DNA of 60,244 bases from Candidatus Cloacimonadota bacterium. GTDB taxonomy: Bacteria; Cloacimonadota; Cloacimonadia; JGIOTU-2; B8-G9. The position numbers were made by a program, and so were the translations under genes. A model generated the notes under the pieces. The model saw only the letters and a program-made list of their open reading frames with translations. It did no database searches and was not told where the DNA came from. Positions 17,554 to 35,966 of the stretch are shown piece by piece. Position 1 is the first letter of the stretch, and each line of letters begins with the position of its first letter. Where the stretch lies: positions 1 to 60,244 of the forward strand of contig QMNM01000001.1 in assembly GCA_003647765.1 (NCBI GenBank). Direction: 5' to 3'.

Positions 17554-17823
17554 ATGCAAGAGTTAATTCCAGGATTCCCACCTTTTCCGCTTGAGAAAAA
17601 AGTTAGGAGAGAGACAAAACTTTTCTGGACTTTCTTTGCAAGATGTCCGAAGGTTGATAATTTTTGTATCTACTATCGTCCTGCGTGGAGAAGATGTATG
17701 TTGTTGAAGGACAATAAGGGTAGGGAAGGGCGACCGATTAAGCAAGTAAAAGAATGTCCAGATGAATACGGATTCAAGTTTGGTCCTTCTGCATATAGAA
17801 AGATATATGAACCTTTAGATTGA
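17554..17823 (+). CDS. Small cysteine-containing protein, isolated rightward gene
   Basis: 89 aa on the plus strand between two leftward blocks. The ribosome site is weak (AGAAAGAAAG). The sequence is plausible as a folded protein, with FFARCPKVDNFCIYY, RRCML and KECPDEYGF cysteines that could bind a metal. Its TGA stop is the first three bases of the palindrome at 17821. A hairpin terminator follows. Function unknown; it could be a small regulator, given the divergent promoter region. Confidence 0.5.
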   Translation: MQELIPGFPPFPLEKKVRRETKLFWTFFARCPKVDNFCIYYRPAWRRCMLLKDNKGREGRPIKQVKECPDEYGFKFGPSAYRKIYEPLD

Positions 17824-17834: not shown

Positions 17835-17848
17835 CTCTAAAAATTAAA

Positions 17849-17868
17849 ACCCCCTCATTTGAGGGGGT
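17849..17868 (-). terminator. Intrinsic terminator of the AAA+/regulator operon
   Basis: The 8-bp stem ACCCCCTC/GAGGGGGT with a four-base loop is followed on the minus strand by TTTTAATTTTT. It lies just beyond the stop of the AAA+ gene at 17935. Confidence 0.8.
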
Positions 17869-17934
17869 CGGAAGAAGGAGGGGAAGGAGGACTTTTGGGT
17901 ATCAGTTATATTTTACTGTTTTTTGTTTGAATAG

Positions 17935-19461
17935 TCAATTCAATAATACCTTTTTATTTGCGGATTTTTTCTTTGTGGTAGAAGAATTAGCAAGTCTTGC
18001 TCTTGTCTTTCCCCATTCCCGCAACGCTTCAATTTCTTCTTTCCTGCTTACAGACAAAGGTATAGTTTCTTCTATTGCTTCCAGTATATCGTTATCATTC
18101 ATGTCTCTATCTTCATAGAAAGCCTTGAGTTTTGCTTGTTTTATTGCAGTTTCTATTTCCGCTCCTGTAAATCCTTTTGTTGCTTCTGCGATTTTATCCA
18201 GATCAAAGATTTCTGGTTTCTCTCCTACTTTTCGCAGATGTATCCTTGCAATTTCTTTCCTTTCATTAGGAGCGGGCAAATCCACAAACCATATCTCATC
18301 AATTCTTCCTCTCCTTTCTAATTCTGGAGGAAGGGCTAGGACATTATTAACTGTAAATGCAAAGAAAAGTGGAGCTGTATTTTCCTGCATGAAATAGAGA
18401 AAAGAACTAATTACTCTTGCAGTAGTTCCTGCATCAGAAGAATCTGATGAAGATAACCCTGAAAATGCTTTTTCCGCTTCATCTATCATTACCACTGCGG
18501 GAGCTTGGGCTTCTATTTCCTTTAAGACCTTGCGTGTGTTTGCTTCTGTTTCTCCTAATCTACTGTTAAATAACTTTCCTATATCCACACGCAATAAAGG
18601 AATCTGGAAAAGGTTAGCCAGAATTTTACAGGAGAGAGTCTTCCCTGTCCCTGGAACTCCAGCCAAAAGCATTCCTTTAGGGACAGGAACTTTCTTTTTT
18701 ATTGCCTGTTCTCTATTCTTGAAAACTTTGCTGACCATTATTGCCCATTGTCTTAAATTATCCAGCCCGCCCAGATCATTAATTGTTTCCTGTGGAGCGA
18801 TATATTCAACCAGCCCTTCTTTCTTTACCTTTTCCGCTTTCAATCTTTGAATCAATTGCGGATCTATTTTTCCTTTACCTTTCACAATCGCTATTTCAAA
18901 CATCTTTTGGGCTTCAATCAGAGTAAGCCCTGATAAATACTCCGCACATTCTTCTAATAAAACTTTCCTTACTTTCAGTTCTTCTCTTTTACAGATCTCT
19001 TTCAGGAGATCAAAAATTTCAGTCTTTGAAGGTAGCGGAATATCAATTACTTGGCAGTATTGGCTGATTTCTGGTGGCAGATTGAATTCTCCCTGCAGGA
19101 TTACATGAACGAATTTAGAACTGTTCGCTATTTTCCTGATAAAAGAAATAATCGCAGGAACATTTAATCCTTCCCTGATGAAGCGATGATAGTTTAGTAG
19201 GAGATAAATGGTAGGCTCATCTTCTTCTTCAGCGATATGCCGAAGGATGTCAAGATAATTAGCATATTCTCTATTCCCAAGTCCATCAATAGCGTCCCAG
19301 ATTTTTAATTGGTATTCGCTCAAATCTTCTATGCGGGAAGATTCTTTTAGCTTCTTATTCAGAACTCCCACCTGTTCCTTAACATATTCAATTGCTCTTT
19401 CTGTTTCTATTGTGTTTAAGACAATTATTTTACATTGACTTCTGATCAGAAGTTCCAGCAT
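17935..19461 (-). CDS. Ycf46-type AAA+ ATPase
   Basis: 508 aa. An N-terminal domain of about 220 residues (LLIRSQCKIIVLNTIETERA ..., IPLPSKTEIFDLL, LSGLTLIEAQKMF) matches the layout of cyanobacterial/plastid Ycf46 proteins. It is followed by a classical AAA+ module: DLGGLDNLRQWA, Walker A GVPGTGKT (268-275), Walker B VVMIDEAE (323-330), sensor-1 FFAFTVNN, arginine-finger region ELERRGRIDEI and sensor-2 FTGAEIETA. The lid is followed by a basic tail. It is expected to be an ATP-driven remodelling machine of unknown substrate. DUF1257(Ycf35)-like and DUF2997-like genes lie in the same operon, a grouping I recall from cyanobacterial genomes. Confidence 0.8.
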   Translation of the reverse strand: MLELLIRSQCKIIVLNTIETERAIEYVKEQVGVLNKKLKESSRIEDLSEYQLKIWDAIDGLGNREYANYLDILRHIAEEEDEPTIYLLLNYHRFIREGLNVPAIISFIRKIANSSKFVHVILQGEFNLPPEISQYCQVIDIPLPSKTEIFDLLKEICKREELKVRKVLLEECAEYLSGLTLIEAQKMFEIAIVKGKGKIDPQLIQRLKAEKVKKEGLVEYIAPQETINDLGGLDNLRQWAIMVSKVFKNREQAIKKKVPVPKGMLLAGVPGTGKTLSCKILANLFQIPLLRVDIGKLFNSRLGETEANTRKVLKEIEAQAPAVVMIDEAEKAFSGLSSSDSSDAGTTARVISSFLYFMQENTAPLFFAFTVNNVLALPPELERRGRIDEIWFVDLPAPNERKEIARIHLRKVGEKPEIFDLDKIAEATKGFTGAEIETAIKQAKLKAFYEDRDMNDNDILEAIEETIPLSVSRKEEIEALREWGKTRARLANSSTTKKKSANKKVLLN

Positions 19462-19479
19462 ATCTCCCTCCTTTTTATA

Positions 19480-19500
19480 GCCCCAGCATAGAGCTGGGGC
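19480..19500 (-). promoter_or_regulatory. Hairpin in the leader of the AAA+ gene
   Basis: A perfect 8-bp stem GCCCCAGC/GCTGGGGC with a five-base loop lies 20 bases before the AAA+ start. There is no clear U-run, so it is more likely an RNA-processing or attenuation hairpin than a full terminator. Confidence 0.5.
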
Positions 19501-19510
19501 ATTTGTTTGC

Positions 19511-19843
19511 TTATAGAGAGCGGTATCTTACATAGAAGAACTCAAAATCATCTTCTCCTACTTCCTTTCCTTTGTCTGCGGGATTGCTAACCCTGTATTT
19601 CAATTTCATAACCAGCATCTCATCTCCATCATTTAAATCAGTTTCCGCTCTATTAAGTGGAACTTCTATTCCTGTCCATTTTCTTATTAACTCAACATTC
19701 TGCGGATACCCTATATAAGACTCTAACTCACCCCTTTTGTGGGCTTTTTGGAGCAAGAGCTTAAACTCCTGAAAAGAAATTTTGTATGCAGAATACTGCC
19801 CTTCCTTTGGCATTACTGCAGAATTTAACAACTTTACTGCCAT
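19511..19843 (-). CDS. DUF1874 / STIV B116-like protein (AcrIII-1 ring-nuclease fold relative)
   Basis: 110 aa. The pattern LLNSAVMP ... ESYIGYPQNVELI ... GIEVPLNRAET ... DGDEMLVMKLKYRV ... ADKGKE follows the DUF1874 family, whose viral AcrIII-1 members cleave cyclic tetra-adenylate to block type III CRISPR defence. The catalytic histidine of the usual IGH motif is Tyr46 here. Arg84 corresponds to the family's conserved arginine, while the nearby glutamate is not evident. This suits a B116-like member that may bind rather than cut a ligand. The gene lies between the DUF2997-like and AAA+ genes and has its own strong GGAGG site. The family call is from memory of the motif; the activity is unproven. 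Confidence 0.7.
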   Translation of the reverse strand: MAVKLLNSAVMPKEGQYSAYKISFQEFKLLLQKAHKRGELESYIGYPQNVELIRKWTGIEVPLNRAETDLNDGDEMLVMKLKYRVSNPADKGKEVGEDDFEFFYVRYRSL

Positions 19844-19865
19844 GATAAACCTCCTTTTTTGGTTT

Positions 19866-19937
19866 TTATCCGCAAGGGATTATTTTGCACTCTTTACAAT
19901 TCTTGAACGGGCAGATGGAGCACTCACTTAAATCCAT
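19866..19937 (-). CDS. 23-aa cysteine-rich miniprotein (possible Fe-S or zinc peptide)
   Basis: The ATG at 19937 has AGGTGG just upstream; GTG at 19943 and a longer frame to 20069 are alternatives. The peptide CSICPFKNCKECKIIPC has the spacing C-x2-C-x4-C-x2-C-x4-C, suited to a metal cluster. It lies between the DUF2997-like and DUF1874-like genes. In cyanobacteria a ferredoxin gene often accompanies DUF2997/DUF1257 (from memory), so this could be a reduced equivalent. The start is uncertain. Confidence 0.4.
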   Translation of the reverse strand: MDLSECSICPFKNCKECKIIPCG

Positions 19938-19957
19938 ATCCACCTGCCCGTTCTCTC

Positions 19958-20131
19958 CTATTCGGAGACAGATATAATGCAATCTGTCTCCGTCAGATCT
20001 TCTTGTTCCAGAATTATTCCTAGTCTGTCTGTAATTTGCCTTATTGGTTCTCTGCATTCTTCCCCCCAAAAATTTTGCCCTTCTATTCTTACTTCCCCGT
20101 TTTCTTTGATTTCAATTTTAATTACAGGCAT
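19958..20131 (-). CDS. DUF2997-like small protein
   Basis: 57 aa with the ATG at 20131 preceded by AAAGGAGGG. The sequence MPVIKIEIKENGEVRIEG, then CREPIRQITDRLGII, matches the DUF2997 pattern of two N-terminal strands, a conserved cysteine and a helix followed by a polar tail. It overlaps a longer frame in another phase (19866-20069) that is largely a shadow. It sits directly after the Ycf35-like gene, an arrangement typical of the DUF1257-DUF2997 pair. Molecular role unknown; probably a subunit or substrate adaptor of the AAA+ protein encoded downstream. Confidence 0.65.
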   Translation of the reverse strand: MPVIKIEIKENGEVRIEGQNFWGEECREPIRQITDRLGIILEQEDLTETDCIISVSE

Positions 20132-20142
20132 GTATCCCTCCT

Positions 20143-20403
20143 TTATAGTTGTATAAAAATTGTGTTTTCTTTCTGTTCTACTATACCATTAACGAAATTT
20201 GATAAATAATCTGCAACAATACCAGTCAATTTTTCCGTATCCATATTATCGTATTTTACATATCCGTTATCATCTACATAAATAGGAGCGAACAAGCCTT
20301 GCCCAGTTATACGACCATTTTTCACTTTAAATCCTTTGCGTCTGGCACTTTCTAAAAACAAATTCTTTTCTACCTTTAGGCTTAATTTTACTCTTTGAGA
20401 CAT
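20143..20403 (-). CDS. Ycf35 / DUF1257-like protein
   Basis: 86 aa with a GGAGGTCATT ribosome site. The order of elements fits DUF1257 (plastid Ycf35): an N-terminal strand and helix (LSLKVEKNLFLESARRKGFKV), a central strand pair around a glycine-rich turn (GQGLFAPIYVDDNGYVKYD), then a helix with a tyrosine (LTGIVADYLSNF). It immediately precedes the DUF2997-like gene and shares an operon with the Ycf46-type AAA+ gene. The function of this protein set is not established even in cyanobacteria. It is somewhat shorter than typical Ycf35. Confidence 0.55.
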   Translation of the reverse strand: MSQRVKLSLKVEKNLFLESARRKGFKVKNGRITGQGLFAPIYVDDNGYVKYDNMDTEKLTGIVADYLSNFVNGIVEQKENTIFIQL

Positions 20404-27845: not shown

Positions 27846-28334
27846 TTAAATCCCAGTCTGCCCAATCCCTCCTCTATTCTCATTTAACAACCTTTCAACT
27901 TCAATAAACTCAATCTTCTCCATATTCTTTATTATTCGGAATTGACAGAGTCGGGCATATAAAGGAACAAAAGTCCCTCTGGTCGCATAAGCAAGAAAAT
28001 GCCAAATATCATCATCTCCACAATAAGAATTATCAATAACCGCAGGAGGATTCGTCTGCTGTAAACCATATCTTCCAAATGTAGAAGACCTTGCCACAAT
28101 CCATGCTTCATGTCCTTGTGGTAATTCTATAGAAACTCCAAGCCCAAATTTTACATACTCTCCCCCACCAATAAACCAACCTTTCTGTTTCTCTCCATTA
28201 ATTTCCCATTCAACAGGTTTCCGTTCTTTCTCATCTATAATCAATTTTGTCGCATACAAATCAATCCAGTCTCCTTTCTCTATAACTTTCAATCTGGGCA
28301 TTGAAGGATCATGATATTTAACTTTTATCTTCAT
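27846..28334 (-). CDS. dut: dUTP diphosphatase (trimeric dUTPase)
   Basis: 162 aa. It hydrolyses dUTP to dUMP and pyrophosphate, keeping uracil out of DNA. The five family motifs are visible: 1 DWIDLYA, 2 ARSSTFGRYGL, 3 VIDNSYCGDDDIW (catalytic Asp in VIDN), 4 RLCQFRI and 5 RGGIGQTG at the C-terminus. The region between motifs 1 and 2 is somewhat longer than in short phage dUTPases. It overlaps the 120-aa gene by 4 bp. It fits with the uracil-glycosylase-like domain on the phage polymerase. Confidence 0.93.
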   Translation of the reverse strand: MKIKVKYHDPSMPRLKVIEKGDWIDLYATKLIIDEKERKPVEWEINGEKQKGWFIGGGEYVKFGLGVSIELPQGHEAWIVARSSTFGRYGLQQTNPPAVIDNSYCGDDDIWHFLAYATRGTFVPLYARLCQFRIIKNMEKIEFIEVERLLNENRGGIGQTGI

Positions 28335-33083: not shown

Positions 33084-35966
33084 ATGGAGAGTTTCTCTAT
33101 AAACGAAGTTCCTTATAACTTCAATGATGTTCCTACCATTAAGAAGTTTTATCTTTCAAACAAGAAAATCAGGGCTATTGTAGGACCGTATGGTTGTTTT
33201 CCAGAATATTGTGAGTATTTGAGTTTTTCTGATGGAGAATATCGCTGGAAGAAGATCAAGGATTATCAAGAAGGGGAAAAGATTGCGGTTTATGATTTTG
33301 AGACAAAGGAGCTTCGGTTTGAGAAGCCTTTGGCTTATGTAAAGCTCCCTATGAATGATCTCTGGATTCATATTCGTGGCAGTAGATTTTTTGAAGCGAT
33401 AGTTTCTCCTGAACATGTCTTTCCCTATATTGTGTCTCATTCTGGGAAATATGGAGTGAAGTCCATTACTGAATTGATTAAGTGGGGGATTACGAATGCA
33501 AGGGTGGTTAATACTTTTCGCATTTGTGGGGAGACTTTTGGTTTAGATGAGTGGTTGGTCAGGTTTATAGCGATGCTTTCTGCTGATGGGCATAAGTGTT
33601 CTGATACCAGATGGCAGGTTTCTTTGAGGAGACGGAGGAAGATTGAGAGGTTGGAGTTTTTGTGCAGGAAGGTAGGAGTTCCTTATTCTCGTAAAGTTTA
33701 TGATTCCCGTCCTACTGAAAATGTTTTCATTTTAGATTTATCTTCTCATCCGCAACTTGCGGGGTTGACCAAGAAGTTTCCGAATTATTTTTACAATTTA
33801 TCTTCTGATTTACTTGATGTTTTAGTGGATGAGATTTTGTATTGGGACGGCTCATTTTACAATGGGAATGATAGGAGATATTTTACGACCATTAAGGAGA
33901 ATGCTGAATTTATCCAGTATGCTTCTCATGCAACGGGCAGGCGTGCTTCCGTTCTTAAAGTTTCGTATCCGAAAGATAATTGGAAGGATTGTTATATTGT
34001 TCATATTTCTGGGAAGGGGGTAAAGAAGACCTGTTTTATTGACAAGGATGCTCCTAAAGATAGGTCAATAAGGTATATTTCTCCGAAGGAAGGTGAATTT
34101 AAGTATTGTTTTACCACTTCAACAGGGTTTTTTCTTGTTAGGTTTAATGGAGCTGTTTATATTTCTGGGAATTCGGGCAAGTCATCTGGTTGTGTTATTA
34201 CTATGCTTCGTCATACTTGTGAGCAGATGCCAGATCCGCATGGGATAAGGAGAACTAGATGGGTTGTTGTTAGAAATTGTTATTCTGATGATACAGAGAT
34301 TCTGACAGAGAAGCGGGGCTGGGTATTGTTTAAAGATTTACTTCCTGATGATAAGGTGGCTCAATATAATCCTGCGACTGATAGATTGGAATTTGTAAAG
34401 CCGACTTATTATTATCGCTCCTATTATAGTGGAGATATGATTTGGGTTCATTCCAGTAGAAAGGAGCTTGATCTTCTTGTTACTCCAGATCATAGGCTTT
34501 ATGTTGCTGATTATAAAGATGGAAAGTGTGGGTCTTTTGATTTTAAAATGGCAAAGTTTTGTTATGGGAAGAAAGTTGCTTTTATTGGTTCTGATGGAGA
34601 GTTGATAGTTGCAGATGAATCTGATTGGGATATGGTAGCTTATAGTGGAATGGTTTATTGTGTAGAAGTTCCTACTCATATCATTTTGGTTTGCAGGAAT
34701 GGAAAACCAGTTCTTTGTTCCCAGACTTACAGACAGCTGAAGGACACAACCAAAAAGACAATAGACTACTGGTTGCGGTTTGCAGAATGGAGAGAATCAG
34801 AGTTTAAGTATATTCTCAAGTTCAGGTTGCAGGATAATACGATAGTGGAGTCTGAATGGCTTTTGAGAGCGTTGGACAGACCAGAGCATATTGCGAATTT
34901 ACTTTCTTTAGAGATAACGGGTGCGTGGTTGAATGAAGCAAGGGAGATTCCGAAGGAGATTTTTGATGCGATAGAAGGAAGATTGCGTTATCCTCCTACA
35001 ATAAGAGACAGAGATGGGAAAGTTTTATATGGTCCTACTTGGTTAGGGATTTTGTTAGACACGAACCCTCCTGATGAAGATCATTGGTTTTACAAGTATT
35101 TTGAAGAAAATAGACCAGAGAAAGCGGAGATTTTTCATCAGCCATCTGGTTTATCTCCTGAAGCGGAGAATATCAGGAATCTTCCTCCGAATTATTATCA
35201 GGATCTTTGTGTTGGCAAGGATCAGGATTGGATAGATGTTTATGTGCATGGGAAATATGGTTCTGTAAGGTCGGGCAAGCCTGTATTTTCTCTCTACAAT
35301 GATGAGATTCATTGTGCGAAAGAGCCGTTAGCTCCATTGATGGGATTTCCGTTGATAATTGGAATGGATTTTGGTTTAACTCCTGCTGCTGTGATTTTAC
35401 AGAAGCCTCCACGCAGGTTATTTGTTCTTGATGAAGTTGTAGCTGAAGAACCGATTGATGTAATTGAGTTTATTCGTTATATGCTTCTTCCTTTTATGGA
35501 GGAGAAGGAATTTTATCGGGGCAAGAATTTCATAATTGTGGGAGATCCAGCAGGTAAGGCAAGGTCGCAGGTTGATGGAAGGAGTGTATTTGAAGCGATA
35601 AATCAGTTAGGGTTGCGTGCTTATCCTGCCTATACGAACTCTTTACAAATCAGGTTAAATGCGGTAAATCAATATTTAACAAGATTGGATACTTTTGCTG
35701 GGGAGATGAAGCCAGCGTTTTTATTATCTCCTACTTGCAGGATGCTGAGGCAAGCCTTGAAAGGGAAGTATAGGATGAAAAGGGTAGCGACTGGGACAGA
35801 TATGTATTCTGATGTTCCTGTGAAGGACAAGTGGTCGCATGTTGCGGATGCGTTGCAATATGGAGCTTTAGGGTATAGGAAGCCGACTTTTAATGAAGAA
35901 TTTGATGAGTTTTCTAACATAGAAGGGCGGGGAGGACCAACGCATTTAGGAACAGGTATTTATTAA
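33084..35966 (+). CDS. terL: Terminase large subunit with two inteins
   Basis: 960 aa precursor; removing inteins at residues 38-363 and 399-546 leaves a 486-aa terminase. The spliced N-terminus restores Walker A GPYGSGKSS and the following VVVRN/TYRQLKDTT. EITGAWLNEARE fits the Walker B/catalytic region of the packaging ATPase. The C-terminal RNase H-like nuclease has IIGMDFG (D762), IIVGDPAG (D821) and KWSHVADALQYG (D922). It cuts and pumps DNA into the capsid. ATG after GAGGAGGGCG. The main gene neighbours are portal and head genes, while terS is 10 kb away. Confidence 0.95.
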   Translation: MESFSINEVPYNFNDVPTIKKFYLSNKKIRAIVGPYGCFPEYCEYLSFSDGEYRWKKIKDYQEGEKIAVYDFETKELRFEKPLAYVKLPMNDLWIHIRGSRFFEAIVSPEHVFPYIVSHSGKYGVKSITELIKWGITNARVVNTFRICGETFGLDEWLVRFIAMLSADGHKCSDTRWQVSLRRRRKIERLEFLCRKVGVPYSRKVYDSRPTENVFILDLSSHPQLAGLTKKFPNYFYNLSSDLLDVLVDEILYWDGSFYNGNDRRYFTTIKENAEFIQYASHATGRRASVLKVSYPKDNWKDCYIVHISGKGVKKTCFIDKDAPKDRSIRYISPKEGEFKYCFTTSTGFFLVRFNGAVYISGNSGKSSGCVITMLRHTCEQMPDPHGIRRTRWVVVRNCYSDDTEILTEKRGWVLFKDLLPDDKVAQYNPATDRLEFVKPTYYYRSYYSGDMIWVHSSRKELDLLVTPDHRLYVADYKDGKCGSFDFKMAKFCYGKKVAFIGSDGELIVADESDWDMVAYSGMVYCVEVPTHIILVCRNGKPVLCSQTYRQLKDTTKKTIDYWLRFAEWRESEFKYILKFRLQDNTIVESEWLLRALDRPEHIANLLSLEITGAWLNEAREIPKEIFDAIEGRLRYPPTIRDRDGKVLYGPTWLGILLDTNPPDEDHWFYKYFEENRPEKAEIFHQPSGLSPEAENIRNLPPNYYQDLCVGKDQDWIDVYVHGKYGSVRSGKPVFSLYNDEIHCAKEPLAPLMGFPLIIGMDFGLTPAAVILQKPPRRLFVLDEVVAEEPIDVIEFIRYMLLPFMEEKEFYRGKNFIIVGDPAGKARSQVDGRSVFEAINQLGLRAYPAYTNSLQIRLNAVNQYLTRLDTFAGEMKPAFLLSPTCRMLRQALKGKYRMKRVATGTDMYSDVPVKDKWSHVADALQYGALGYRKPTFNEEFDEFSNIEGRGGPTHLGTGIY
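33195..34172 (+). other. Intein 1 with LAGLIDADG endonuclease (TerL residues 38-363)
   Basis: Begins at Cys38 (CFPEYCEYLSFSDG) inside Walker A and ends VYISGN before Ser364. The block B-like VSPEH and block F/G CFTTSTGFFLVRFNGAVYI are visible. A central homing-endonuclease domain has FIAMLSADG and LYWDGSFYNG, the two LAGLIDADG-type motifs. Penultimate residue is Gly instead of His. It carries a palindrome variant (33716). Confidence 0.92.
33716..33729. promoter_or_regulatory. Palindrome, one central change, in intein 1
   Basis: TGAAAATGTTTTCA, encoding ENVF inside the endonuclease part of intein 1, so the site also occurs in an inserted selfish element. Confidence 0.75.
34278..34721 (+). other. 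Intein 2, mini-intein (TerL residues 399-546)
   Basis: 148 aa. Starts CYSDDTEILTEKRGW, has block B LLVTPDHRLY, then VYCVEVPTHIILVCRNG, and ends VLCSQ before Thr547. There is no endonuclease domain. The last residues are Ser-Gln rather than His-Asn, a rare ending. Splicing restores VVVRNTYRQLKDTT, a typical terminase sequence. Confidence 0.9.

Follow-up and report, generated by a model that had tools for sequence, protein, structure and literature searches.

A phage gene set resembling a compact form of an AAA+ ATPase, DUF1257, DUF2997 and Fe-S protein module

The window, that is the whole stretch of 60,244 bp analyzed here, is the complete viral contig IMG/VR 3300013103_000002. A direct terminal repeat of 123 bp is present at positions 1-123 and 60122-60244, which indicates that the phage genome is complete and was assembled as a circle, and genes for a terminase, a major head protein, a DNA polymerase, a RecA/UvsX-like recombinase, a DnaB-like helicase and a DnaG-like primase were identified. 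The same contig is also found in an incomplete genome bin of 1.97 Mb, whose class includes a Cloacimonadota MAG, and this binning suggests a Cloacimonadota-type host; the company that the phage keeps would point to a hot environment. The ORF of the terminase large subunit (33084-35966, plus strand, 960 aa) matches terminases only in its last part, and its other parts match the PhoH-like and ribonucleotide-reductase (possibly intein-type) families of PHROG. A weak dUTPase match, slightly below the Pfam cut-off, can be observed at 27846-28334 (minus strand).

The gene run under study is read leftward from 20403 to 17935, with all of its genes on the minus strand, and is followed by a terminator. 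The features, with the evidence for each of them in brackets, are as follows.

20143..20403, minus strand: DUF1257(Ycf35)-like protein, shortened, 86 aa (conservation, N-terminal profile match, predicted topology)
19958..20131, minus strand: DUF2997 protein, 57 aa (Pfam PF11211)
19866..19982, minus strand: cysteine-rich peptide, 38 aa (conserved cysteines, HMM self-family)
19511..19843, minus strand: DUF1874/STIV_B116 protein, 110 aa (Pfam, 54 bits)
17935..19461, minus strand: Ycf46-type AAA+ ATPase, 508 aa (Pfam AAA, phrog_8638, tree)
17848..17869, minus strand: intrinsic terminator, 9-bp stem with a T-rich tail (sequence and fold)
17554..17823, plus strand: Cys-containing 89-aa protein, possible accessory (conserved beside the AAA gene)

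The 9-bp stem of the terminator (17869-17848) is followed by TTAATTTTT. In order to assess the conservation of the run, four related IMG/VR viral contigs (L002-L005) were used for comparison. The DUF1257-like, DUF2997, Cys peptide and AAA genes are kept in the same order in all four, with identities to the window of 62-70% for the AAA protein and 32-50% for the small proteins, and the neighbourhood is therefore not a product of chance. The stop of the Cys peptide overlaps the AAA start in L003-L005, where one additional small gene separates the DUF1257-like gene from that of DUF2997; about 14 bases lie between Cys peptide and AAA in L002. A family of 67-89 aa proteins with the cysteine pattern CxxYRxxWRxC...CPD, to which the 89-aa protein belongs, adjoins the AAA gene in 5/5 related contigs, in the same direction in L003-L005 and inverted in the window and L002; it is a possible accessory to the module. 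The initial annotation had described one leftward operon closed by a terminator and including a tiny cysteine-rich peptide, and this description agrees with the common strand, the 9-bp stem with its T-rich tail, and the conservation of the 38-aa peptide with its five cysteines in L002-L005. Between DUF1874 and AAA, a GC-rich hairpin of 8 bp was noted at 19480-19500 (minus strand), and in the predicted fold of 19462-19520 (minus strand) the ribosome-binding region of the AAA gene pairs with the end of DUF1874 (MFE -23.4 kcal/mol, z -4.3); this predicted intergenic fold may represent translational control or an insertion scar.

The 508-aa protein matches Pfam AAA with 84 bits, and phrog_8638 covers its residues 4-502 (E=4e-108). 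It is 35% identical to a Prochlorococcus homologue over residues 4-492, and the next family, FtsH-like proteins of about 620 aa, is found only near 1e-22. A degenerate N-terminal domain precedes the C-terminal AAA domain, which contains Walker A (268-275) and Walker B (323-333). Walker A, the DE of Walker B, the sensor-1 N and the Arg finger are all intact, and the protein is accordingly predicted to be an active classical-clade AAA+ ATPase. The pore loop lacks the usual aromatic residue (SRLG here, mostly SLVG in relatives), which makes threading doubtful. In the tree, the protein clusters with cyanobacterial Ycf46 and with module ATPases, apart from FtsH, with a support of 100/100; the clade of the window phage is distinct from that of the proteobacterial phages (100/97), and no specific closeness to the Cloacimonadota module gene can be observed.

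The 57-aa protein scores 30.9 bits against Pfam PF11211 (DUF2997), above the curated cut-off of 24.1. Its residues G12, G23 and C26 are invariant across an alignment of 14 diverse members. A PDB profile search with DUF2997 was empty or weak, and a glycyl-radical role for the family was considered and dropped, as an RVxGY-like motif is lacking. The best start of the Cys peptide is the TTG at 19982, with GGAG just 5' of it; the peptide overlaps the end of DUF2997 and itself ends at 19866. Its five conserved cysteines are spaced C-x2-C-x4-C-x2-C-x4-CG, and its HMM recovers its own family in L002-L005 (E 1e-19 to 1e-22). Its spacing differs from the Fed7-like 4Fe-4S pattern, C-x2-C-x2-C ... CP, and it resembles neither ferredoxins nor proteins of the radical-SAM type. 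The peptide may bind a metal or an Fe-S cluster.

For the 86-aa protein, Pfam DUF1257 (PF06868) gave no match in a search of its own genome even at E<=10, nor any match in L002-L005, and tblastn of the 86-aa and 57-aa window proteins against phage records returned nothing. The protein is nevertheless conserved in L002-L005 and occupies an equal relative position in the five contigs. When the family of four was compared with DUF1257 profiles by hhalign, the alignment began at Met1, with pairwise E values of 1.1e-4 and 2.7e-3 for two alignments; the latter outscored 100/100 column shuffles and a reversed control. The AlphaFold2 topology, E-H-E-E-E-E-H-E-E, has the same order as that of the canonical DUF1257 model; the two models are independent, that of the 86-aa protein having been built from its own four sequences. 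Several weak PDB look-alikes (AMPK KA1, BamC) are shared by both, with best Z values of only 5.8 and 6.9. Foldseek/VIA found no significant PDB or viral match for the 86-aa model, and for the canonical model two viral proteins of DUF1257 size were the sole significant matches; a PDB profile search with DUF1257 was empty or weak. No function can thus be derived from the fold for either protein. The canonical MSH start and the invariant D, Q, Y and G are not found: the window protein begins with MSQ, and no more than S2 is retained, together with one Tyr and one Gly at plausible places. Synteny, N-terminal profile similarity and the predicted topology together point to a shortened DUF1257, and we use the label "DUF1257-like" because both the Pfam match and the MSH start are missing.

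Both small proteins are shorter than usual, with 86 aa where DUF1257 has about 125-147 aa and 57 aa where DUF2997 has about 65-75 aa. The identities proposed in the initial annotation thus fared well for the Ycf46-type ATPase, by its full-length profile match and its grouping with cyanobacterial Ycf46, and for DUF2997, by its score above the Pfam cut-off, and the set is indeed compacted in the phage; the DUF1257 identity is weaker, as synteny, the N-terminal profile and the predicted topology point to it, but no Pfam match, canonical residues or significant Foldseek match.

The DUF1874/STIV_B116 protein was also placed in its family by Pfam (54 bits) and by sequence matches in the PDB. It lies between Cys peptide and AAA in the window only and not in L002-L005; in L002, a DUF1874 gene is present at another place of the phage, and its motif is the usual IGH. 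In the window protein this motif is IGY, so that the catalytic His is replaced by Tyr46, whereas GH is present in 6/6 other viral copies aligned. The AcrIII-1/Crn2 ring nucleases belong to the same family, and Tyr46 aligns with their catalytic histidine, H495 in Csx1-Crn2, whose change to Ala abolishes cA4 degradation (PMC7293037). H47A AcrIII-1 retains cA4 binding, and a sponge role for the window protein is therefore possible. Judged from the genomes compared, DUF1874 is outside the conserved module. Models for Csm1 and Cmr2 detected no Cas10 in the incomplete bin; the sole Csm1 match there is an RNase Y-like HD protein and was rejected.

A survey of gene neighbourhoods found the set in other genomes. 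The AAA, DUF1257 and DUF2997 triple is present in cultured phages of Rhizobium (RHph_I4), Aeromonas (HJ05), Pseudomonas (SM1) and Rhodobacter (RcMenchie), and also on plasmids of Bacillus, Paenibacillus, Pseudanabaena and Arthrobacter and on an IncC plasmid. Both DUF families are annotated as such in RHph_I4; in RcMenchie, DUF2997 passes and DUF1257 was detected only through BLAST to RHph_I4, and the small genes of the Arthrobacter and IncC plasmids are below the Pfam cut-offs. Altogether, the module is present in at least six bacterial phyla. The gene set in phages is thus already present in public genomes and is not new. Among 80 viral contigs found by DUF1257, DUF1257 and DUF2997 adjoin in 77, and an adjacent AAA gene was seen in none on the fetched stretch; in marine viral contigs the DUF2997-DUF1257 pair nearly always occurs without one. 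The cultured relatives of these viral DUF1257 genes are in the Prochlorococcus phages P-SSM2, P-SSM5 and P-SSM7.

Bacterial and archaeal genomes were scanned once with DUF1257 alone, and the best-scoring 80 loci were analyzed (54 picocyanobacterial and 26 other). The alignment of DUF2997 proved too divergent for a scan of this kind. As these are the best-scoring loci and most of them are closely related, the following figures are counts and not independent events. DUF2997 adjoins DUF1257 in 53/54 picocyanobacterial and 23/26 other loci; among the latter, an AAA gene is beside DUF1257 in 19 and a gene for an NrdG-like radical-SAM protein is present in 11. A strict C..C..C...C motif revealed no ferredoxin near DUF1257, and with the looser Fed7 motif a ferredoxin-type motif was found within 1.5 kb in 54/80 loci, versus 0/132 background stretches of equal length. 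The recurrent Fe-S partner is a ferredoxin in picocyanobacteria and an NrdG-like protein elsewhere (E about 1e-33 versus NrdG, slightly below the equivalog cut-off), and many modules have no visible Fe-S gene. Hsp70-family genes recur (11 loci, Pfam-checked), and no recurring nuclease or toxin partner was seen at the loci. The DUF1257-DUF2997-ferredoxin set is retained across reduced Prochlorococcus genomes.

Several loci deserve separate mention. In a marine cyanophage-like contig (L151, 1162-5387), two ORFs read by eye as nrdA and nrdB directly precede DUF2997-DUF1257, which is followed by transaldolase-like and glutaredoxin-like genes, also named by eye. The module of the Bacillus plasmid is near a thymidylate synthase gene. 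The Pseudanabaena plasmid (L019, 110-7722) has one run of GrpE, Hsp70, DUF1257, an SMC/AbiEii-like ATPase, DUF2997, AAA and a WD40 protein. On the IncC resistance plasmid (L014, 5725-7885), an AAA gene accompanies DUF1257-like and DUF2997-like genes, and 782 plasmid records, the majority of them conjugative, match its ATPase.

In cyanobacteria, cluster g has already been described as DUF2997 - ycf35 (DUF1257) - fed7, with ycf46 elsewhere (PMC4284462). The phage resembles it in its DUF2997, DUF1257-type and Ycf46-type proteins and in an adjacent small Cys/Fe-S gene, but has the AAA gene within the run, a DUF1257 of 86 instead of about 130 aa, and a five-Cys 38-aa peptide of no known family in place of the ferredoxin. 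RHph_I4 / L338C, HJ05, SM1 and RcMenchie are likewise tailed phages with AAA, DUF1257 and DUF2997 in one direction, whereas they have a full-length DUF1257, the AAA gene first, an extra protein of about 200 aa and no Cys peptide, and their AAA proteins form a separate supported clade. The Cloacimonadota/Delongbacteria operon AAA-DUF1257-DUF2997-radical SAM (L024, L025) is as compact as that of the phage and has the same gene set, except that its fourth gene is of the NrdG-like radical-SAM type and its AAA shows no specific kinship to the phage protein. IncC plasmid pKHM-1 (L014) has AAA followed by the two DUF-like genes, as in the phage set, with no Fe-S gene seen and with small genes below the Pfam cut-offs; the SGI1/IncC paper uses Ycf46 only as the superfamily name of another ATPase. 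In the literature searched, no description of the AAA/DUF1257/DUF2997/Fe-S association as a module was found, DUF1257 and DUF2997 are seldom named together, and the surveys of conflict systems and jumbo phages do not mention it. The mobility claimed in the initial annotation is thus borne out by carriage in other phages, plasmids and viral contigs, and the cyanobacterial neighbourhood with a ferredoxin by cluster g and the motif at 54/80 loci.

By sequence and gene order, a classical-clade AAA+ protein with a degenerate N-terminal domain can be seen to travel with DUF1257, a Cys-bearing DUF2997 and an Fe-S or Cys-rich partner. We consider it nearly an even chance that the four phage genes are a compact version of this conserved module, which would be an ATP-driven protein remodeller with thiol or iron-sulphur chemistry. 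In such a machine, the ATPase hexamer would remodel or mature client proteins, DUF1257 would act as an adaptor, and DUF2997 with the Fe-S partner would provide the chemistry (thiol, metal or electron) by which the client is gated or delivered; the 38-aa Cys peptide, at the place of the Fe-S protein of others, is perhaps the Fe-S partner of the phage. Just downstream of the module genes, and in the same orientation, lie the genes of the DnaB-like helicase and the primase, which hints that the phage would use the module during replication. Against this reading stand the dissimilarity of the Cys peptide to the usual Fe-S partners, the non-aromatic pore loop, the many modules in which no Fe-S gene can be seen, and the marine viral DUF2997-DUF1257 pairs, nearly all of them lacking an adjacent AAA gene.

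The linkage is conserved and the ATPase motifs are intact, and the remodelling complex of the initial annotation is plausible; its link to counter-defence through DUF1874 was not supported, since this gene is within the run only here, is elsewhere in L002 and has lost the catalytic His. The corresponding explanation, that the AAA protein dismantles host defence or machinery while DUF1874 blocks CRISPR signalling, would fit carriage by phages and plasmids and the position of DUF1874 inside the run. We regard it as improbable: picocyanobacteria and other bacteria have the module on the chromosome, and parts of it are plastid-encoded in algae (PMC4284462, PMC5940233), so that it is not restricted to invaders, DUF1874 is missing from the module of relatives, which together with its missing histidine leaves a weak anti-CRISPR hint, and the AAA protein shows only a general AAA match to known defence ATPases (PADLOC). 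There is still less to be said for the module itself being a defence or superinfection-exclusion system of phages and plasmids. Its mobile, modular character, the Hsp70, SMC-like and WD40 neighbours in the Pseudanabaena plasmid and an IetA-like AAA similarity would be in line with this, but its retention in reduced Prochlorococcus genomes and the lack of a recurring nuclease or toxin partner argue against it.

Maturation of a metallocofactor or radical enzyme is unlikely too, albeit the least so of the alternatives. By analogy with MoxR-type maturation ATPases, the module would insert or repair a cofactor, e.g. that of ribonucleotide reductase; the NrdG-like partner, the nrdA and nrdB readings before the L151 pair, the thymidylate synthase near the Bacillus plasmid module and the non-aromatic pore loop favour this, whereas no reductase subunit adjoins the module in the window or at most loci, and picocyanobacteria have a ferredoxin instead of the radical-SAM gene. 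It is also quite improbable, to about the same degree as a defence system, that only AAA and DUF2997 belong together and that the 86-aa protein is a chance neighbour other than DUF1257: its missing Pfam match, modest profile score and lack of a significant structural match are set against its equal position in five contigs and its predicted topology, which follows the canonical order.

Returning to the redox-linked remodeller, we tentatively propose, with slightly less confidence than for the phage genes as such, that Ycf46, Ycf35 (DUF1257), DUF2997 and an Fe-S/Cys protein may form one redox- or metal-coupled AAA+ machine common to plastids, cyanobacteria, other bacteria, plasmids and phages, of which the window phage would carry the most reduced version known, where a 38-aa peptide would be all that is left of the Fe-S protein. 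The genes ycf46 and ycf35 have long been mysterious in plastids and cyanobacteria; their strong co-occurrence with DUF2997 and an Fe-S partner across unrelated genomes suggests one testable machine, for which the phage copy could be a small test case, and a four-gene version from a putative hot-environment phage would be convenient for reconstitution and structure work.
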